Source: Thalassobaculum sp. OXR-137
Lineage (GTDB): Bacteria; Pseudomonadota; Alphaproteobacteria; Thalassobaculales; Thalassobaculaceae
DNA length: 64,000 bases
NCBI RefSeq assembly: GCF_034377285.1
Contig: NZ_CP139715.1
Location: forward strand, 1,302,001-1,366,000
Reading direction: 5' to 3'
The notes beneath the pieces are model-generated. The model did not search any database, had not been told where the DNA came from, and worked only from the letters and a program-made list of their open reading frames with translations. Each line of letters opens with the position of its first letter. Positions within the stretch are counted from its first letter, which is position 1. Positions 6,889 through 64,000 of the stretch are shown here, one piece after another. A program made the translations under genes and the position numbers.

Positions 6889-7839
6889 TCAGTCCGAGAA
6901 GGCGAAGCCCATGGTGCGGGCGTAGTAGTGCAGCCCGCCGTCCTGGACGATCAGGAAGCGGGCGAGCCCGGCCCCGCCATTGTGGTGGCTGTGCACCTCG
7001 GCCGGCGGCGTGACCATGGTGGAGAACGGCGACCAGTCGATCCGGTGGCCGTCGATCATCGAGAAACAGCCCGGCCCGTCGACGCATAGGGTGATGGCGG
7101 CGGCGTTGTGCTTGTGCGGCCGCTGGTGGTGCCCCGGCGCCAGCGTGTTCATCGCCAGGGTCATCGACGGCATGGCGTTGCGGCTGTCCGCCGTGCGCTC
7201 GGAGGAGAAGATCAGCGCCACCCCGGCCGTGTTCTCGTCCGTCGGCATGTTGGTCAGGACCTCGATCTGCCGGGCGATCTCGTCCGCCGGATAGTGAACC
7301 GGATCGATCTGCGAGCTCTCCGCGCTCGGTGCGCGCAGCCCTTCGAAGGCCAGCACCGGCTCGTTGGTGACCACCCAGAGCACGGCCGCGGCGTCCCCGT
7401 CCGCCGTATGCGAGACCGCTTGGCCGCCTGGCAGAACCATCACGTCGCCCGGTCCCCAGGAGATCGTCTCGCTCCCGATCGTCGTCGTGCCGCTGCCGAC
7501 GATGGCGTAGATCACCTCGCCGCTGGCGATGAAAGCCGTCGTCACCGTGTCGCCCGCCGTCACCCGGATGTAGCGGGCCAGCACCAGGGGCGTGGTCGCG
7601 GGGAACGATCCGCCGAAGGCATCCGACTGATCCATCGCGAACAGACCGCTCGCCGCGTCCTCGGCGAAGGCGGCATCGCGTTCGGCGTCGAAGCGGGCGC
7701 GAGGGACCGACGGAAGCTTCAGGTTGAAGGCGTTGCCCGAGTTGAAGAACCGCGCCCGGCGTTGGGCGTCGGTGTCCGCCTGCATCGGCGGATCCCCGTC
7801 GAGAACGGCGGCGCTGGCGGGTTTCATCGCGGTCGACAT
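6889..7839 (-). CDS. cupin-domain (bicupin) protein
   Basis: A 316-residue protein with two cupin-like beta-barrel regions (about 85-165 and 215-310). The first contains GEVIYAIVGSGTTTIG and a GDVMVLPGG turn. The second has HHQRPHKHNA and HSHHNGG, giving several His for a metal site. This resembles bicupin dioxygenases of the gentisate family, but substrate is not clear. The ATG at 7839 was chosen because AGGAG lies 7 bp before it; a longer reading frame would overlap the upstream ArsR gene. It follows the ArsR gene on the same strand by 77 bp. Confidence 0.75.
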   Translation of the reverse strand: MSTAMKPASAAVLDGDPPMQADTDAQRRARFFNSGNAFNLKLPSVPRARFDAERDAAFAEDAASGLFAMDQSDAFGGSFPATTPLVLARYIRVTAGDTVTTAFIASGEVIYAIVGSGTTTIGSETISWGPGDVMVLPGGQAVSHTADGDAAAVLWVVTNEPVLAFEGLRAPSAESSQIDPVHYPADEIARQIEVLTNMPTDENTAGVALIFSSERTADSRNAMPSMTLAMNTLAPGHHQRPHKHNAAAITLCVDGPGCFSMIDGHRIDWSPFSTMVTPPAEVHSHHNGGAGLARFLIVQDGGLHYYARTMGFAFSD

Positions 7840-7916
7840 GGCGCTTCTCCTGGGCTGGTCCCGGTCTGCCCATGCTGACGGATGGGCGGGTGAGGCGCTA
7901 GAGACAGACTGTGCCG

Positions 7917-8612
7917 TCAGCCGATCCCGAATTGCTCGCGCAGGGCCTGCTGTCCCTTCGGCGTGATGCGCAGCGCCCGGCTGCCGGCGACCCGGGTGAC
8001 CCAGTGCTGCTCGAGGAAATGGGTGCACACCGCCGCTCCCAGCCGCCCGGCCAGATGCGGGCGCCGCTCGCTCCAGTCGAGGCAGGGGCGGCAGAGCGGG
8101 CGGCCGCCGCGCTTCGGTGGGCCGTCGACCGTGATGCCGAGCGCCGCCAGCCGGTCCAAGCCGTCGGGCGTGACGATGCCTGCTCCGTCGTCGAAGGCGA
8201 TGACGTCGCGGGCGACCAGCGCGTCGGTGACCGCCACGCCGAGCCCGCCGGCCAGATGGTCGTAGCAGGTCCGCGCCAGCCGCATCTGCGCATCGCGCGG
8301 GCCGGTCACCGGCTTGCGGACGGGCGACGGCAGGGTGATGGCGGCGATCCGCGCCACGCTCTCGATCAGGTCGGCCACCTCGGTGGAGGCGAGACGGTGG
8401 TAGCGATGACGCCCCTGGCGCTCGACCGCCAGCAGGTTGGCCTCGGCCAGCCGGGCGAGATGGCCGCTTGCGGTCTGCGGCGTGATCCCGGCCACCCCCG
8501 CCAGTTCGCCCGCGGTCAGGGCGCGGCCGTCCATCAGGGCATCGAGCATGGCCGCGCGGGCCGGCTCGCCGATCAGCAGGCCGATCTCCGCCATGCGGTT
8601 GGTGTTCACCAT
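7917..8612 (-). CDS. ArsR-family winged-helix transcriptional regulator
   Basis: A 231-residue protein whose N-terminal ~90 residues form a winged helix: a recognition helix (VAGITPQTASGHLARLAEANLL, from about 40) followed by a wing (VERQGRHRYHRLAS). The remaining ~130 residues carry several Cys and His (for example RPLCRPCLDW) and form an extended effector domain of the kind found in long ArsR-like regulators. GGAGG precedes the start. It is divergent from the NIPSNAP/ABM gene pair and upstream of the cupin gene, so it probably controls one or both (inference). Confidence 0.85.
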   Translation of the reverse strand: MVNTNRMAEIGLLIGEPARAAMLDALMDGRALTAGELAGVAGITPQTASGHLARLAEANLLAVERQGRHRYHRLASTEVADLIESVARIAAITLPSPVRKPVTGPRDAQMRLARTCYDHLAGGLGVAVTDALVARDVIAFDDGAGIVTPDGLDRLAALGITVDGPPKRGGRPLCRPCLDWSERRPHLAGRLGAAVCTHFLEQHWVTRVAGSRALRITPKGQQALREQFGIG

Positions 8613-8741
8613 GCGGGCCTCCGGGCCGGTGGACGATCGCTCCAGCCTACCCGCGGGGGCGGAACGACGCTACGGCGCGCACCGAAACATCCGGTCGGTC
8701 GGCTCGGGCATCTCTTCGGCATCGCAACCGAGGAGACCGCC

Positions 8742-9071
8742 ATGATCACCTGCGTCATCGAATACGAGATCGACCCCTACAAGCGGGCCGAGTTCGAGGC
8801 CTATTCCCGCGTCTGGGGCCAGGCGATCCCGCGCTCCGGCGCCGACCTGATCGGCTATTTCGCCCCGCACGAGGGGTCCGCCACCCGCGCCTACGGCATC
8901 TATTCGCTGGAGAACCTGGCGGCCTACGAGGCCTACCGCGCCCGGCTCGCGGCAGATCCCCTGGGTCGGGAGAACTACGAGTTCGCCAAGTCCGAGCGGT
9001 TCATCCTGAAGGAGAACCGGACCTTCCTCACCCTCGCGTCCGGCCCGCACGCGCCCTGGGTGACGCCGTGA
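8742..9071 (+). CDS. NIPSNAP-family protein
   Basis: A 109-residue ferredoxin-like alpha/beta-barrel protein. The opening MITCVIEYEIDPYKRAEFEAY and the motif GYFAPHEGSATRAYGIYSLENLAAYEAYRA are typical of bacterial NIPSNAP proteins, which are small dimers of mostly unknown function. The ATG at 8742 has GAGGAGA upstream. It overlaps the next gene by 4 bp (GTGA) and both are divergent from the ArsR regulator. A possible role is in oxidation or tailoring of a small aromatic or lipid, as inferred from the partner. Confidence 0.85.
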   Translation: MITCVIEYEIDPYKRAEFEAYSRVWGQAIPRSGADLIGYFAPHEGSATRAYGIYSLENLAAYEAYRARLAADPLGRENYEFAKSERFILKENRTFLTLASGPHAPWVTP

Positions 9072-9412
9072 TCGCCGTCCTGTTCGAGCTTGAGCCGTTG
9101 CCGGGGCAGCGCGACGCCTATCTGGCGATGGCCGCCGAGATGCGGCCTTTGCTGGAGGAGATCGACGGCTTCGTGTCGATCGAGCGGTTCCAGAGCCTGA
9201 CCAATCCCGACAAGCTGCTGTCCCTGTCGGTATTCCGCGACGAAGCGGCGGTGGCGGCCTGGCGCAACACGATGCATCACCGCCGCGCCCAGGCGGCGGG
9301 TCGAGGATCGGTCTTCCGCGACTATCGGCTGCGGGTCGCCGGGGTGCTGCGCGACTACGGCATGGCGGAGCGCGCCCAGGCACCGGAGGACTCCCGCGCG
9401 GCCCACGGGTGA
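9068..9412 (+). CDS. antibiotic biosynthesis monooxygenase (ABM) family protein
   Basis: A 114-residue member of the ABM dimeric alpha+beta barrel family. The features are an N-terminal beta strand (IAVLFELEPLPGQRDAY), the GFVSIERFQSLTNPDKLLSLSVFRD core (about 37-61) and the AAWRNTMHHRRAQAAG helix with a His pair. It starts at GTG overlapping the NIPSNAP stop, so the two are translationally coupled. Members are small cofactor-free oxygenases or haem degraders, or have no known function; no substrate is inferred. The last ~20 residues are disordered. Confidence 0.85.
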   Translation: MIAVLFELEPLPGQRDAYLAMAAEMRPLLEEIDGFVSIERFQSLTNPDKLLSLSVFRDEAAVAAWRNTMHHRRAQAAGRGSVFRDYRLRVAGVLRDYGMAERAQAPEDSRAAHG

Positions 9413-9538
9413 GGCGGCCGGGAGCCGGCGACGGGTGGCATGGTGCCGAAACCGCCATGACACTTTTCGCAGTTGCGAGATTGTCGCCGGGTCGGAGCGG
9501 GTCTATAGCCGACGGGTGCAATCTCATCGGATATCTTC

Positions 9539-57314: not shown

Positions 57315-58601
57315 CTAGCCGTTCGGACGCTCGCCCGCGCTGGGATAGGCCATCGGGAAGCTGGGCTCCTCGGCGGTAGCGCGCCGCAATGCGGGGGCGG
57401 CGCCGGCGGGACCGCGCCGGAGGATCTCCGCGATGATCTCGGGGATCTGTCTCGCGGCGCTGTTGCGAAGTGGCATATCCGACGTGTTGTCGCGGTGATG
57501 GGCAGAGCCCGACAGCAGCGACGCCAGCGTCTCGGCGAACTGCTTCGGTGTCGAGAAAACGTCACCGGCGCCGTTCCGCTTGATCCACTTGAGGACCGCG
57601 TGCTCCTGCGGCAGGACGTTCGCCCGGTCGATCAGCAGCGGCAGGCCGAAGGCCAGCGCCTCGCTCACCGATAGCGGACCGGTCTTTCCCACGAAGACGT
57701 CGGCGACGGCCATGTAGCGGTGAACCTCGCGGGTGAAGCCTTTCACGACGGTGGGAAACGGCAGGCGGGCGGCGGCGACGGCTGACGCCAGCGCATCATT
57801 GCGACCGCACAGGAAGACCACCTGAGCCCGCGGCGGCGAGTCCCGCAGCGCCTCGGCCATCTCCAGCATCCGCCAACTTCCGTAACCGCCATAGAGCATG
57901 CACACCACCGGCAGATCCGGGTCGAGACCGAGCGCGCGGCGGGCCGCCGGGATATCCGCCGGCTTGGCTTCGAGAAACACCGGCCGGGTCAGCAGTCCGG
58001 ACATCGGGAACAGGCGATCGGCGGGGTGGCGTTTGCGCACCAGCTGGTCGTGGCAGACATCGGTTCCGGCGATCGCGTAGTAGCGATCGCCCTTCGGGAA
58101 CCACACATGCCGGTTCAACTCGGCCCAATCGGTCATCAGCACGGCGAACGGGACCCCACCCTTCCGATATCCGGCGAGACTGTCCGCAATCAGATGGTTG
58201 ATGACCGGGAGCACCGAGACGACGAGGTCGGGTTCGAGGCGCTCCCACAAATCGGCGAACGCCTGCCTTCCCCTGTTGCCGAGCAGGGCCACGTTCAGCA
58301 CGGCGCCGGCATAGAAGCCGAGACAGAAAAGGCCGGTCCGGCCCCGCCGCAGAATCAGGTCGTTGTAGGTCGCCTCGACGGTCCGCGAGGTGAACCGGGC
58401 GAAGAGGTCGAGGTCCGAAAGAACCTCCTGGTAGGCGTTCACCAGAGTCACACGGTATCCGCCGGTCGCGCACAGGATGTCGCGAAGCGCCTCGGCGGTC
58501 GCCCGGTGGCCGCCGCCGGCATCGGTGTAGACCACGACCACGTGGCGACTGCCGGCTGCATCGGACGCCGTCGGAAGGCCCGCCGGTGTCGCCTCGTTCA
58601 T
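57315..58601 (-). CDS. MGDG-synthase-like glycosyltransferase (GT28 type)
   Basis: A 428-residue GT-B glycosyltransferase. The N-domain VVVYTDAGGGHRATAEALRDIL (about 21-42) with the GGGH motif is the PF06925-like acceptor domain of monogalactosyldiacylglycerol synthases and related diacylglycerol glucosyl/glucuronosyl transferases. The C-domain includes VGKTGPLSVSEALAFGLPLLI (about 314-334), the nucleotide-sugar site. It would glycosylate a membrane lipid using UDP-sugar. The ATG at 58601 is used. Divergent from the radical SAM pair. With galE 5 kb further, supply of UDP-galactose is plausible. Confidence 0.88.
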   Translation of the reverse strand: MNEATPAGLPTASDAAGSRHVVVVYTDAGGGHRATAEALRDILCATGGYRVTLVNAYQEVLSDLDLFARFTSRTVEATYNDLILRRGRTGLFCLGFYAGAVLNVALLGNRGRQAFADLWERLEPDLVVSVLPVINHLIADSLAGYRKGGVPFAVLMTDWAELNRHVWFPKGDRYYAIAGTDVCHDQLVRKRHPADRLFPMSGLLTRPVFLEAKPADIPAARRALGLDPDLPVVCMLYGGYGSWRMLEMAEALRDSPPRAQVVFLCGRNDALASAVAAARLPFPTVVKGFTREVHRYMAVADVFVGKTGPLSVSEALAFGLPLLIDRANVLPQEHAVLKWIKRNGAGDVFSTPKQFAETLASLLSGSAHHRDNTSDMPLRNSAARQIPEIIAEILRRGPAGAAPALRRATAEEPSFPMAYPSAGERPNG

Positions 58602-58950
58602 CGGCCCGATCCGAGCATGACGGCATTCGGATATCCGAGCGCGGTGCCGTGACCGAACTGCCTCACGCAAATCCTCATTCGACCCCCTCCAGACGGCGCC
58701 CCACCCGATCCAGTCAAACCGGTCGAACCCTGCGCGCTGTCCCTTCTGTTCCCGCAGTAGCGCAGTATAGCGTGTCCTCCCGACTCTGGAGTGAGACAGA
58801 TGGACACCTCCCACTGCGCTGGAACTGAAGGGTTTTTGTCGCCGGATACTAAAATTGAGACTACGATGCCGCTACTGATTAACCCGGCTGGTCTGGCGCC
58901 GTCGCTACCTTGAAGGGTGCGACCGGAGTTGGTCCCAGGAGGAGTCACCG
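58602..58950. other. intergenic region between the glycosyltransferase and radical SAM genes
   Basis: This 349-bp stretch separates divergent genes and carries no supportable coding sequence. It has a perfect palindrome TCGGATATCCGA (58627-58638) just upstream of the glycosyltransferase, a possible operator. AGGAGG at about 58936 provides the ribosome binding site for the radical SAM gene. No convincing -35/-10 pairs are seen. Confidence 0.55.
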
Positions 58951-60696
58951 ATGCCAGCGCTGCCGGTTACGTCGAACGAAGGGGTTTCCGCAAGCCGCAA
59001 ACGGCTCGGGTTGCTGCTGATCAAGCCGTCCCAGTACGACGATGACGGCTACGTCATCCAGTGGTGGCGGTCCTACATCGTCACCAACGCATTGGCCGTC
59101 GTCGCCAGTCTGTTCAAGGATGCCGCAGACCGTCAGGCCCTGGGTCCGGACATCGCAATCGAGACCCGGCTGCTCGACGAGGTCGTCCAGTTCGTTCGGC
59201 CGGACGAACTGACGGGCTGGCTGGCCGAGTTCGATTACGCCGCGGTGTTGCTGGTGGCGGTCCAGACCAGCCAGTTTCCCCGGGCCCTGGCGATCGGGGC
59301 GGAGTTCCGGGCCGCGGGCTACCCGGTGATCATCGGCGGCGTCCATGTCAGCGGGACCTATGCGATGACGCCCGGATGGAAACCGGGCTTCGCCGGGGTC
59401 GAAGAGGCGGATGTCAGCCTGTTCGCCGGCGAGCTCGAACCCCATGTCGATTCGTTGCTGACCGATATCGTCAGCGGAACCGTCAAACCGTTCTACAACC
59501 ACCTCGCCAACAACGCCGATCTCGGCAAGGCGCCGACCCAGCGGGCGACCCACGACCTGGCGGCGAAGACCTTCGACCGTTATTACGGACTCGAGATCGG
59601 CCGCGGCTGCCCGTTCGTGTGCAGCTTCTGCACGATCATCAACTTTCACGGCCGCACGATGCGTCACCGCACCCTGGCCGATATCGAATCCTATCTGCGC
59701 GAATGCGCCGCCGGCGGCGGCCGCACCATGCTCATCACCGACGACAACTTCGCCCGCAGCCCGATCTGGCGCGACGTCTGCGGGATCTTCGCGCGTCTGC
59801 GCCGGGAACTCGGCATCGACTGGGACGTGACGATCCAGGTCGATGCCCTGGCCGTGCGGATCGACGGTTTCGTCGAGGCGTGCCAGGAAGCCGGGGTGAC
59901 GCGGATCTTCATCGGCATGGAATCCGTCCGGGCCGATAACCTGAAGGCCGCGGGGAAAGGCCAGAACAAGCTCCACCAGCTCCGCGACATGGTCATGACC
60001 TGGCGCCGCGCCGGCGTGATCATCTATGCCGGCATGATCGTGGGCCTGCCCAACGACACGCCGGAACGGATCGCCGAAGACGTCCGCATCCTGCAGGACG
60101 TCATCCCCGTCGATATCCTGTCGCCGTTTCTCTACACCCCCTTGCCCGGCTCCGCCGACCACAAGGACATGGTCACGGTCGGCATCCCGATGGACGAAGA
60201 CCTGAACCGGTACGAGACGGTCCATACGGTGATCGACCACCCGCTGATGAGCCGGGAGGTCTGGCAGGCGCTGTATTGGGACACGTGGCGGATGTTCTAC
60301 ACGCTGCCCCATCTGCGCACGACCATCGCCCGGGGCCTGAAGCACGGCCTGCCCATGGCCGCGTTGCGCAGCACCTATGTCTGCAGCAATACCGCGGCCT
60401 GTTTCGAGCGGGTGCATTCCGGCAATTCCGGGGCGGTCCGGTACCGCGACCGACGGACGCGGCGGGAAGGCTTTCCGAAAGCGCCGGCGGTTCCGCATGC
60501 GATCCGCCAGTTCACGCGGAATACGTGGATCCTGTCCCGGATCGGCGTGCGCCTGCTCTACGCCTACGGTCTGGAGCTGTTCCTGAGGTGGGAGCAGCGT
60601 CGCGGCCGGTTGGACCGGTACATTCCCGAAGAACAGGTGCCCGCGCCGGCTCATGACGCCGGAACGCCGTCGCCCGGGACAATCGCCGCCGAATAG
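58951..60696 (+). CDS. radical SAM enzyme with B12-binding-like N-domain (copy 1)
   Basis: A 581-residue enzyme. The N-terminal ~210 residues have a Rossmann-type layout (GLLLIKPSQYDDDGY at 20-34, VIIGGVHVSG at 126-135 with the GG-x-H of cobalamin-binding radical SAM proteins), but lack a clear DxHxxG base-off motif. The [4Fe-4S] Cys triad is C220-x3-C224-x2-C227 in GRGCPFVCSFC, then the TIM-barrel core to about 430. A C-terminal part with LLYAYGLELFL suggests membrane proximity. Next to its paralogue and divergent from a lipid glycosyltransferase; product unknown. Confidence 0.88.
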   Translation: MPALPVTSNEGVSASRKRLGLLLIKPSQYDDDGYVIQWWRSYIVTNALAVVASLFKDAADRQALGPDIAIETRLLDEVVQFVRPDELTGWLAEFDYAAVLLVAVQTSQFPRALAIGAEFRAAGYPVIIGGVHVSGTYAMTPGWKPGFAGVEEADVSLFAGELEPHVDSLLTDIVSGTVKPFYNHLANNADLGKAPTQRATHDLAAKTFDRYYGLEIGRGCPFVCSFCTIINFHGRTMRHRTLADIESYLRECAAGGGRTMLITDDNFARSPIWRDVCGIFARLRRELGIDWDVTIQVDALAVRIDGFVEACQEAGVTRIFIGMESVRADNLKAAGKGQNKLHQLRDMVMTWRRAGVIIYAGMIVGLPNDTPERIAEDVRILQDVIPVDILSPFLYTPLPGSADHKDMVTVGIPMDEDLNRYETVHTVIDHPLMSREVWQALYWDTWRMFYTLPHLRTTIARGLKHGLPMAALRSTYVCSNTAACFERVHSGNSGAVRYRDRRTRREGFPKAPAVPHAIRQFTRNTWILSRIGVRLLYAYGLELFLRWEQRRGRLDRYIPEEQVPAPAHDAGTPSPGTIAAE

Positions 60697-60748
60697 TCAA
60701 TTATTCGGCGGTAGCCGAGCCAGAGTGCCGCGAACGGGGGCAGTACCG

Positions 60749-62494
60749 ATGACAGTCACATCGATCAAACCTGAGACCGAACGATCCTCCAGCAAGAAAC
60801 GGCTCGGCCTGTTGCTGATCAAGCCGTCGCACTACGACGACGACGGTTATGTCATCCAATGGTGGCGTTCGTTCGTGGTCAACAACGCCCTGGCCGTGAT
60901 GGGCAGCGTCATCAGCGACGCCGCCGACCGCCAGGCCGTGGGTCCGGATATCGACATCGAGCGGCGCCTGATCGACGAAGTGACCGAGGTGGTCCGCCCG
61001 GATCGGCTGATCGACTGGCTGGCCGAGTTCGATTACGCCGCGGTGTTGCTGGTGGCGGTCCAGACCAGCCAGTTTCCCCGGGCCCTCGACATCACCCGCC
61101 CGTTCGCCGCAGCCGGCTATCCGGTCATCATCGGCGGCGTCCATGTCAGCGGGGCGCTGGCCATGGTGCCGAACTGGGAACCGGCTTTCGCGGGTGCCTC
61201 CGAAGCCGGCGCCAGCCTGTTCGCAGGCGAGTTCGAACCGCATGTCGACGAGCTGCTGAACGACATCGTCGCCGGCAGCGTGAAGCCGTTCTACGACCGC
61301 TTAGCCAGCCCCGCCGATCTCGGCGTCTCCCCGCGTCAGCGCGCCGAACATGGCCTCGCCGCGCAGACGGTCGAGCGGCACTACGGCCTGGAGACGGGAC
61401 GCGGCTGCCCGTTCGTCTGCAGCTTCTGCACGATCATCAACTTTCACGGCCGGAAGATGCGGCACCGCCATGCCGAGGCCATCGAGGCGTACTTGCGGGA
61501 CTGCCATGCCCATGGCGGGCGCCACATCCTCGTCACCGACGACAACTTCGCCCGGAGCCCCGTCTGGCGGGAGGTCACGGCCACCCTCGAGCGCCTGCAG
61601 CGCGAGCTCAACGTCGAGTGGGACGTGGCGATCCAGGTCGACGCGCTGGCCTACCGGATCGACGGATTCGTCGATGCCTGCAAAGCCGCCGGCGTTAAGC
61701 GGGTGTTCATCGGCATCGAGTCGGTGCGGCCGGACAACCTGAAGGCCGCGGCCAAGGGACAGAACAAGCTCCACCTGATGCACGACATGGCGATGACCTG
61801 GCGCCGGGCCGGCGTGCTGATCTACGGCGCGATGATCGTCGGTCTGGCGAACGATACGCCCGAGCGCGTCGCCGAGGACGTCAGGATCCTGCAGGAGGAG
61901 ATCCCGGTCGATATCCTGTCCGCGTTCCTGCTGACCCCGCATCCCGGCTCCGCCGACCATAAACACGCGGTCGCGGCCGGTGTCGTAATGGACGACGACC
62001 TCAACCGCTACGATACGGTCCACCCGGTGGTCGACCATCCGATCATGTCCCGGGACGAGTGGGAGGCGTTGTACTGGGACACCTGGAAACGCTTCTACAC
62101 CAAGTCGTACATGAAGACGGTGATCGCCCGCGCCCTGCGGTACGGCGTCAAGCTCGACATCATCCGCAGCACGTTCGTCTGCGCCTATACGGCCTCGTGC
62201 TACGAGCGGGTGCACCCGCTGGACAGCGGCGGCCTGCGGTTCCGCGACCGGATGTCCCGCCGGCCGAACCTACCGCGTCCGGCTGCGATCCCACACGCGA
62301 TCCGCCAGTTCGCGACGAACACCGTCATGCTGACCCGGATCGCGAGCCTGCTGCTCTACGCCTACGGGTTGGAGCTGTATTTGCGGGTGGAGCGGGCGCG
62401 GGGCCGTCTGGATCTTCACACCCGCATCCGGACGACGCCGGAAGTCGAGGAGACCCCGACCCTGGCGCAGGCGCCGGTGGCCGCCGCGGAATGA
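60749..62494 (+). CDS. radical SAM enzyme with B12-binding-like N-domain (copy 2)
   Basis: A 581-residue paralogue of the upstream gene, of identical length and with motifs in the same register: GLLLIKPSHYDDDGY at 20-34, GGVHVSG at about 129-135, and Cys residues C220, C224 and C227. The N-terminal 17 residues and C-terminal ~40 differ most. A 72-bp stretch is identical at 61015-61086 and 59217-59288 (same codon register). The start ATG at 60749 has GGGGGCAG upstream; it lies 52 bp after copy 1, so both are likely in one transcript. Substrate unknown. Confidence 0.88.
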   Translation: MTVTSIKPETERSSSKKRLGLLLIKPSHYDDDGYVIQWWRSFVVNNALAVMGSVISDAADRQAVGPDIDIERRLIDEVTEVVRPDRLIDWLAEFDYAAVLLVAVQTSQFPRALDITRPFAAAGYPVIIGGVHVSGALAMVPNWEPAFAGASEAGASLFAGEFEPHVDELLNDIVAGSVKPFYDRLASPADLGVSPRQRAEHGLAAQTVERHYGLETGRGCPFVCSFCTIINFHGRKMRHRHAEAIEAYLRDCHAHGGRHILVTDDNFARSPVWREVTATLERLQRELNVEWDVAIQVDALAYRIDGFVDACKAAGVKRVFIGIESVRPDNLKAAAKGQNKLHLMHDMAMTWRRAGVLIYGAMIVGLANDTPERVAEDVRILQEEIPVDILSAFLLTPHPGSADHKHAVAAGVVMDDDLNRYDTVHPVVDHPIMSRDEWEALYWDTWKRFYTKSYMKTVIARALRYGVKLDIIRSTFVCAYTASCYERVHPLDSGGLRFRDRMSRRPNLPRPAAIPHAIRQFATNTVMLTRIASLLLYAYGLELYLRVERARGRLDLHTRIRTTPEVEETPTLAQAPVAAAE

Positions 62495-62623
62495 TCCTGT
62501 CGGAATGCGGCGATGCCGTTGCCGAGGCGGCGAAGCGGCGCGCGGTACCTTCTGAAACCTCCGGGCCGACCCGGTTGCCGGCTGGTCCGGCCCCGGCGAC
62601 CCACCCAACCAGACCGATGCATC

Positions 62624-63265
62624 ATGACTGATCTTGCCCTGTCCTCCCTGACCGACGTCATCCTGGCCTGCGAGCTGCTTTTTCTGGCGGGCCTGGCCTT
62701 CAGAACGGATGTCGAGAGCGGGTCGCCTGCCTGGCTGTGGGCGATCTACCTCACGGTCTCCGGCATCGCGACCGCGCTGGGCGCGATCGACCACGGCTTT
62801 TTCGAGCCGATCGACCACCCTGGCCATGGAGCGATGAAGTTCGCCACCCGGGCCACCCTGGCCGTTGGTGCCGTCATTCTGCTGCTCACGTCGGCCCGTC
62901 AGTTCTTGTCGTCGTTGTGGACGCGGGTTGTGGTCGCGGCCGGCCTGGTCGCGCTGGCCGCCACGCTCTGGGTTAATTGGACGAGCGACGATCTGCTCGC
63001 CGTGGTCGCCATGAACGCGGTCGGCATGCTGCTTGCGCTCGTGCTGCACCTCTTCAATCTGCGGACCGGGCGCGGGTCGTCGATGATGTGCGTCGGTATC
63101 GTTCTGAGCATCGCGGCGTCGTCGCTGGTGTTCTCCGGCGGGAACGGATTTTTCGGCCTGGGCCTGTACGGGACCATGCATGTCGCCCTGATGCCGGCCG
63201 CGCTCGCGCTGTTCCTGGGCGGCCTGAAGCTGCGGCGCACCCGGAGCGGTGAGGCACCGGCTTGA
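62624..63265 (+). CDS. multi-helix membrane protein of unknown function
   Basis: A 213-residue integral membrane protein with about six or seven hydrophobic segments, for example ILACELLFLAGLAF (about 13-26), TLAVGAVILLLTS (about 77-89), VVVAAGLVALAATLWV and MPAALALFLGGLKL at the end. No recognised domain; the HGFFEPIDHPGHGAMKFATRAT stretch (about 57-78) is the most polar and contains three His. It is co-directional with the radical SAM genes and galE but starts 130 bp after the second. Ribosome binding site is weak. Confidence 0.75.
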   Translation: MTDLALSSLTDVILACELLFLAGLAFRTDVESGSPAWLWAIYLTVSGIATALGAIDHGFFEPIDHPGHGAMKFATRATLAVGAVILLLTSARQFLSSLWTRVVVAAGLVALAATLWVNWTSDDLLAVVAMNAVGMLLALVLHLFNLRTGRGSSMMCVGIVLSIAASSLVFSGGNGFFGLGLYGTMHVALMPAALALFLGGLKLRRTRSGEAPA

Positions 63266-63296
63266 GACACCGACACCTGCACCTCGAGGAGCATTG

Positions 63297-64000
63297 ATGG
63301 CGCGCGTGCTTGTCACCGGCGGGGCCGGTTATGTCGGCTCCCATGCCTGCAAGGCCCTGGCCCGTGCCGGACACGAACCGATCGTGCTCGACAACCTGTC
63401 GCAGGGACATCGCGCTCTGGTGCGGTGGGGGCCGCTGGTGGTCGGCGATATCGCCGACCCGGTCTGTGTCGATGGAGTCTTTCGCGAGTACCGCCCTGAC
63501 GCGGTCATGCATTTTGCCGCGATCGCCAGCGTCGGCGAGTCGATGGTCGATCCGGCGGTCTACTATCGGATCAATATCGGCGGCACCATGACGATCCTCG
63601 ATGCGATGCGGGATCACGATGTCGCCCCGCTGGTTTTTTCGAGCAGCTGCGCGGTCTACGGCTGCCCGCCGACCGCCCTGATCGTCGAGGAGAGTTCACT
63701 GGAGCCGGTGAACCCGTACGGCGCCAGCAAGAAGATGATGGAACGAATCATCGCCGATTACGGGCAGGCATACGGGCACCGATCGCTCTGCCTGCGCTAT
63801 TTCAACGCCGGCGGGGCCGACCCGGACGGCGAGGCGGGCGAATCCCACGATCCGGAAACCCACGTCATTCCGTTGCTGCTGATGGCCGCGACCGGCCGGA
63901 TCCCGCAGTTCGATATCTACGGCACGGACTACCCGACACCGGACGGCAGCGCGATCCGGGACTATGTCCATGTCAGCGACCTGGCGGAAGCGCATGTCGC
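63297..64000 (+). CDS. galE: UDP-glucose 4-epimerase (C-terminus beyond window)
   Basis: An extended short-chain dehydrogenase cut by the window end after ~234 codons. It opens MARVLVTGGAGYVGSHACKALARA, with the TGxxGxxG NAD site (residues 7-14). The catalytic Ser is in SSSCAVYG (about 123) and the YxxxK motif is YGASK (about 145-149). LRYFNAGGADPDGE and the late RDYVHVSDLA are GalE signatures. It interconverts UDP-glucose and UDP-galactose and could feed the MGDG-type glycosyltransferase upstream. GAGGAG ribosome binding site lies 6 bp before the ATG. Confidence 0.93.
   Translation, partial: MARVLVTGGAGYVGSHACKALARAGHEPIVLDNLSQGHRALVRWGPLVVGDIADPVCVDGVFREYRPDAVMHFAAIASVGESMVDPAVYYRINIGGTMTILDAMRDHDVAPLVFSSSCAVYGCPPTALIVEESSLEPVNPYGASKKMMERIIADYGQAYGHRSLCLRYFNAGGADPDGEAGESHDPETHVIPLLLMAATGRIPQFDIYGTDYPTPDGSAIRDYVHVSDLAEAHV

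Follow-up and report, generated by a model that had tools for sequence, protein, structure and literature searches.

The stretch of DNA considered here (the window, 64,000 nucleotides, G000:C1:1302001-1366000) belongs to the 5.65 Mb genome of Thalassobaculum sp. OXR-137, and its last 6.7 kb, which were studied, carry two adjacent genes for radical S-adenosylmethionine (rSAM) enzymes, termed rSAM1 and rSAM2. The gene set had first been described from the letters alone as a glycosyltransferase (GT) of the monogalactosyldiacylglycerol (MGDG) synthase type, two rSAM proteins of 581 residues, a membrane protein and galE; profile searches and the list of open reading frames (ORFs) agree with this description. 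The own locus (L005) reaches past the window, where a second GT, a fatty acid desaturase and further genes follow (Table 1). With slightly less than even confidence, we take the locus to be the left half of a gene cluster for a galactoglycerolipid.

Long antisense ORFs overlie the rSAM genes (e.g., 58945-60654 on the minus strand), which we judge to be shadow frames of high-GC DNA, and for rSAM2 a longer reading frame is possible from 60653. The gene set is not a product of chance, since homologues at about 80-84% identity are present in other assemblies and at least 572 stretches encode relatives.

Table 1. Genes of the locus. Plain numbers are window positions; numbers after L005 are positions in the own locus.
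Feature	Position	Strand	Remarks
MGDG-synthase-type glycosyltransferase (MGD1/UgtP kind), 428 aa	57315-58601	minus	likely start 58601
rSAM1, B12-type radical SAM enzyme by fold, 581 aa	58951-60696	plus	PF04055 and modelled fold
rSAM2, B12-type radical SAM enzyme, 581 aa	60749-62494	plus	PF04055; separate orthologue group
DUF6962 seven-helix membrane protein, 213 aa	62624-63265	plus	PF22285, E 3e-36
galE, UDP-glucose 4-epimerase	63297-64000; L005 8250-9377	plus	TIGR01179; truncated at window end, complete in L005
DGD-type glycosyltransferase	L005 9314-10549	minus	outside window; DGD2 relative
Fatty acid desaturase	L005 10663-11604	plus	outside window; histidine boxes
Small methyltransferase	L005 11625-12227		outside window
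cNMP-binding/CPBP membrane protein (cNMP-CPBP)	L005 12422-13558		outside window
HlyD and RND pump	L005, after the cNMP-CPBP gene		outside window

From the search of genome contigs 79 loci were kept, the best of at least 572 stretches, and the clade of the window, delimited by identity, counts eight loci (L005 and L010-L016; L102 and L103 were taken to duplicate the assemblies of L011 and L013 and left out of the counts). Among the matches listed, the cluster is found at six of these eight loci (L005, L011-L014 and L016). The fatty acid desaturase and the cNMP-CPBP protein are encoded at all six linked loci, the MGD-type GT, the DGD-type GT and a PlsC-like acyltransferase at five each, the DUF6962 protein and HlyD at four each, and galE (at 49% identity or more) at three; the PlsC-like gene is absent from the window's own locus, and a 27% match to GalE in Thalassobaculum fulvum was left out. 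The expectation of a conserved neighbourhood thus holds for the gene set, which recurs, and fails for the gene order, which varies between the linked loci. In the original prediction the GT was tied to its neighbours by proximity in a single genome; the tie to a glycolipid now goes beyond mere neighbourhood, because the set recurs, reshuffled, at the six loci and because a DGD-type GT adjoins galE.

The linkage to lipid and sugar genes is confined to this clade, and the outcome that was to refute the original prediction, a survey in which the pair stands apart from such genes, applies to the distant part of the family only. The distant clade comprises 73 loci (L017-L089, 1.43 Mb), and tblastn at E<=1e-5, which may miss distant homologues of lipid enzymes and was applied to some short loci, found the cluster at none of them, with only HlyD at one locus, a lipid kinase at two and RND at three. 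This sister clade includes relatives from Rhizobium, Rhodopseudomonas, Chromatiaceae, anammox bacteria and Acidobacteriota, and the lipid genes of the cluster do not lie beside its members. When 40 of its loci were clustered, the largest groups of shared neighbours, the rSAM aside, were ABC-type ATPases (10 loci) and AMP-binding or carrier-type enzymes (five loci: L025, L044, L062, L086 and L105); judged by eye, both look generic. The second group is possibly a lead to acyl activation or else a chance occurrence. A plasmid collection yielded only two distant matches, one in an unannotated record and the other without a lipid neighbour.

The two rSAM proteins share 66% identity at equal length. 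A maximum likelihood tree (quick method, SH-aLRT support) was built from alignment A3, which holds 45 rows of the rSAM family, 11 of them from the window clade. The window clade stands apart from the rest of the tree with a support of 100, and so do two orthologue groups: rSAM1 groups with copies of strain BAL199 and the metagenome-assembled genome (MAG) at L012, and rSAM2 with copies from these two assemblies and from T. fulvum. A third L012 copy as well as the proteins of L014, L015 and L010 fall outside both groups. Among the matches listed, strain BAL199, T. fulvum and a Rhodospirillaceae MAG are the closest named relatives of the rSAM genes. By this phylogeny, rSAM1 and rSAM2 are old paralogues, and the pair is older than the split of the assemblies; a recent tandem duplication is ruled out, since the two proteins fall into separate orthologue groups that span several assemblies. 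The retention of both old copies suggests different tasks. The idea of two enzymes acting successively gains from the old paralogues kept side by side, and from nothing else.

Two further family members belong to this picture. A third clade copy in the own genome (L010 7880-9646; C1:2629906) lies away from the cluster. It adjoins the gene for a large protein in which two stretches are of the family 2 glycosyltransferase kind, and gpsA-like, S6PP-like and GT20-like genes are nearby. The cluster at L016 contains a divergent member (7767-9482) that is 36% identical to rSAM1 and sits on a long branch on the distant side of the tree; it is an exception to the rule that cluster linkage follows the clade.

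Both rSAM proteins belong to the radical SAM superfamily, as they carry the CxxxCxxC site and score 55.7 and 48.9 bits against PF04055 (cut-off 29.5). The residues of this site, C220, C224 and C227, are the sole invariant cysteines in the 45-row alignment. The rSAM1 model (predicted local distance difference test, pLDDT, 90.6) shows a Rossmann N-domain and an rSAM barrel linked as in B12-type enzymes, and a fold search returned AprD4 as best match, followed by the B12-type methylases MgmA, CysS and TsrM. The alignments extend over residues 17-456 (AprD4), 16-542 (CysS) and 18-540 (TsrM). AprD4 carries a B12-binding domain yet is not known to need cobalamin. By modelled fold, rSAM1 is a B12-type radical SAM enzyme, and rSAM2 is classed with it; of the previously noted B12-like Rossmann N-domain the fold is borne out, while the domain profile PF02310 stays under its curated cut-off. 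It is solely from the B12-type fold, common to MgmA, CysS, TsrM and others, that C-methylation can be argued as the candidate chemistry.

The solved B12-type enzymes AprD4, MgmA, CysS, TsrM and OxsB (6fd2, 9ccb, 9n1b-d, 6wte/6wtf and 5ul2-4) are only 14-19% identical to rSAM1, which differs from them by a long C-terminal helix (residues 513-550) and a near-invariant N-terminal KPSxYDDDGYVI stretch. The search of curated rSAM subgroups proposed earlier gave no assignment, as the two proteins clear no NCBIfam rSAM cut-off: the top family, TIGR04013, scores 77.1 bits against a cut-off of 251, and the HpnR, HpnJ, BchE, PhpK, ladderane and AprD4 families score 31-66 bits against cut-offs of 360-650. 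The rSAM core is in common with TIGR04013, BchE, HpnJ, HpnR, PhpK and rSAM_ladder_B12, yet all scores lie far below the respective cut-offs (251-650). A precedent for an rSAM enzyme on lipid tails is GDGT-MAS/Tes, which resembles the role proposed here and, according to an excerpt of PMC9433317, holds three auxiliary metal sites in extra domains. Membership in a Tes-like tetraether synthase family was rejected, as the auxiliary-cluster cysteines that go with the Tes domains in that excerpt are absent.

The C-terminal helix of the rSAM1 model coincides with hydropathy peaks of 0.80-2.14 across the 11 clade rows, and by means of this helix the rSAM enzymes probably rest on the membrane. The tail past residue 565 is modelled with a pLDDT below 50. 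At the C-terminal ends, which lie at 60685-60693 in rSAM1 and at 62483-62491 in rSAM2, seven of nine window-clade ORFs carry -AAE (the others -AGE and -AAA), as do, outside the nine-ORF set, the proteins of L014 and L015; among other family ORFs the ending occurs in four of 77, one of which is a broken L016 copy. Such conservation at the very C-terminus may reflect a recognition tag or contact with a partner.

The window GT carries the motif AGGGHRAT. Its best solved relative is Arabidopsis MGD1 (4wyi, E 1.3e-27 over 367 residues), followed by a processive diacylglycerol glucosyltransferase (9wde, E 8.8e-20). It is thus alike in sequence to plant MGD1 and bacterial UgtP/YpfP-type GTs, but stays under the Pfam MGDG_synth cut-off, which its relative in genome G002 clears (27.7 versus 25 bits); against NF010135 it scores 89.9 bits, far under the cut-off of 500. 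From its likeness to MGD1, the protein is a putative galactosyl transferase to diacylglycerol. The DGD-type protein beyond the window resembles plant DGD across most of its length: Arabidopsis DGD2 (8p6s, E 8e-45, residues 30-394 of 411, i.e., 365 residues) is the sole distinct sequence in the PDB matched at E<=1. Compared with plant DGD1/DGD2 it is alike in sequence and differs by its setting next to rSAM genes in a bacterial cluster. Both plastid galactolipid synthases hence have relatives, with MGD1 and DGD2 as best solved kin, in one and the same bacterial cluster. The available part of a 2019 paper (PMC6946739) reports plant DGD1 homologues in some proteobacteria and an unclear direction of transfer. 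galE passes TIGR01179 with its in-window part alone (299.6 versus 262.3 bits), and the own genome holds two GalE-like places at E<=1e-30, the second of which is 48% identical and lies away from the locus. The DGD-type transferase beside galE fits the earlier idea of a galactolipid supplied by GalE, and galactose is the probable sugar of the lipid.

The own genus and family were covered with 25 genomes, of which four (G000, G002, G007 and G018) carry MGD- and DGD-type genes together (E<=1e-20), and neither type is found alone. A window-clade rSAM is present in three of these four genomes and in none of the 21 others (one-sided Fisher 0.0017, kinship ignored). At larger scale matches to the DGD-type profile (E<=1e-40) are rare: a class sample of 385 genomes has three and a phylum sample of 398 genomes has two, and each count includes the own genome. 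A search around G140 matched 1 of 143 genomes, namely G140 itself, where the rest of the cluster is not on the 7.8 kb contig; in these searches at most 4 or 13 candidates were scored per genome. The DUF6962 profile exceeds its cut-off in 2 of the 385 class genomes and reaches E<=0.001 in eight. The DUF6962 protein itself is modelled with seven helices and the model has no Foldseek match at E<=0.001. A putative relation to CREST membrane hydrolases would call for a seven-helix fold together with a His/Asp/Ser metal site. No mention of DUF6962 was found among the open-licence papers listed.

What points to the acyl chains is the company that the rSAM genes keep or lose. G002 is devoid of this rSAM family at E<=1e-20, and its cluster instead encodes an enzyme of the cyclopropane fatty acid synthase family (CMAS; L128 10021-11208, PF02353, E 3.6e-79) between the MGD-type GT and the methyltransferase and DUF6962 genes. 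In T. fulvum a CMAS 56% identical to that of G002 is encoded between rSAM2 and the desaturase, and a different B12-type rSAM (L013 8416-9924, PF02310, E 1.5e-19) occupies the place of rSAM1 beside rSAM2. The best NCBIfam scores of this protein are to ApyD, HpnJ and BchE, all far under cut-off. No CMAS match was found in the examined stretches of the three rSAM1 loci (the window, BAL199 and the MAG L012), and across these five loci CMAS alternates with rSAM1 (n=5). The own genome has CMAS-family genes elsewhere, of which the two full ones share 36% and 31% identity with that of G002. CMAS, a protein family other than rSAM in the same cluster, acts on acyl-chain double bonds, as its family name and an extract of PMC11387697 indicate. 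It stands in for rSAM1 at most, since T. fulvum has CMAS together with rSAM2; the idea that CMAS replaces the whole rSAM pair was dropped on these grounds. The desaturase at all six linked loci and the CMAS in relatives, judged over five loci, argue for the acyl chain, rather than the sugar, as the more likely target of the rSAM enzymes. The choice between lipid and head group had been left undecided in the original prediction; comparative evidence favours the acyl chains.

With somewhat less than even confidence, we thus propose a galactolipid cluster whose acyl chains the rSAM pair would modify, most likely by C-methylation. A number of observations weigh against this proposal. CMAS coexists in T. 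fulvum with rSAM2 and another B12-type rSAM, and L014 and L016 have rSAMs of neither orthologue group and no CMAS match either. Within the stretches examined, L014 is without the DGD-type gene and L016 without the MGD-type gene, and two clade members, L015 and the own genome's L010, lie outside any such cluster. The desaturase could serve any lipid, and the window GT scores 19.0 bits against MGDG_synth, below the cut-off of 25. PF02310 is weak on both rSAM proteins (E 0.0044 and 0.017; 17.3 and 15.4 bits versus 32.1) and reaches E<=0.01 in 10 of the 45 family members, with a best E of 0.00025. AprD4, the closest fold to rSAM1, acts on a sugar, and the C-terminal hydropathy of distant rows reaches 1.57 and overlaps that of the clade. 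Finally, no report of a galactolipid in Thalassobaculum was found among the open-licence papers listed.

The sugar substrate of AprD4 leads to the alternative that the rSAM pair modifies the head group, by deoxygenation, epimerisation or C-methylation of galactose, instead of the acyl chains. We regard this as rather unlikely: the constant genes of the linked loci are the desaturase and cNMP-CPBP and not sugar genes, one or the other GT is missing at L014 and L016 and a galE of at least 49% identity from half of the loci, and it is CMAS, an acyl-chain enzyme by family, that alternates with rSAM1. Moreover, the AprD4 match covers the common rSAM architecture, and B12-type methylases rank next. 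Nearly as much may be said for a specialised glycolipid or natural product, e.g., an exported glycosylated fatty acyl compound tailored by the rSAM enzymes, as opposed to a bulk membrane galactolipid, which is likewise an unlikely reading. It is possible because genome G415, from another class of the same phylum, has a comparable set around a megasynthase (L130 1-18911; G415:C45): a distant DGD-like gene (34%), an rSAM (21% identical to rSAM1), a ketosynthase/condensation-domain megasynthase, a TylF methyltransferase, RND, HlyD, a TMEM164-family protein and a cNMP-CPBP protein (28%), i.e., accessory genes like those of the window cluster. The rarity of the gene set (the 3 of 385 class genomes with the DGD-type profile at E<=1e-40) would also suit a specialised product. 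However, a megasynthase was not seen at the window locus, and the relatives of plant MGD/DGD, with the PlsC-like and lipid-kinase genes of related loci, are in line with glycerolipids.

That the rSAM pair merely adjoins the cluster and serves some unrelated or broad housekeeping function, like its distant relatives, seems improbable. No lipid neighbour of this kind is conserved in the distant clade (among others in Rhizobium, Rhodopseudomonas and Chromatiaceae) and two clade members are unlinked, but the linkage outlasts reshuffling in six assemblies, and within the family the presence of the rSAM tracks the cluster. Modification of hopanoids by an enzyme of the HpnP, HpnR or HpnJ kind can hardly be upheld. 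The weak profile matches to HpnJ and HpnR that might suggest it reach 38-66 bits, where the cut-offs are 577.6 and 650, and hopanoids are excluded, unless taken up from outside, because SQHop_cyclase_N, the squalene-hopene cyclase profile, was not found in the own genome (B. subtilis was positive among 14 controls). The portion of PMC12583986 at hand also lists Thalassobaculum among the genera without shc.

In the proposed galactolipid pathway, GalE would supply UDP-galactose, the MGD1-type transferase would place the first sugar onto diacylglycerol and the DGD-type transferase the second, while the desaturase would act on the acyl chains. rSAM1 and rSAM2 would then attack, in succession, unactivated carbons of the lipid's acyl chains, most likely by C-methylation (or another C-C or C-H change) near a double bond made by the desaturase, and a CMAS-type enzyme would assume the rSAM task in relatives without rSAM1. 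Transport of the lipid towards the outer membrane may fall to the HlyD/RND pair. More tentatively still, and rather doubtful at present, a bacterial MGD and DGD pathway of the plant type, in which a dedicated pair of B12-type rSAM enzymes rebuilds the acyl chains, could yield an undescribed class of branched or ring-bearing galactolipids, with rSAM1 and CMAS as two solutions to one step.

What is new here is the gene combination and an rSAM family below all NCBIfam cut-offs, whereas the folds and enzyme classes are known. In keeping with the earlier statement that no described pathway with this layout is known, none was found among the open-licence papers listed, which is weak evidence of absence. 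The co-occurrence of MGD1 and DGD2 kin in one bacterial cluster bears on the origin of the plastid DGD gene, unsettled as far as the accessible text of PMC6946739 shows, and if the proposed pathway is true, such loci would be candidates for its little-known bacterial kin. A large rSAM family would thereby be tied, in one clade, to a concrete substrate class, and the rSAM repertoire would gain, beyond archaea and hopanoids, reactions at unactivated carbons of lipid tails.

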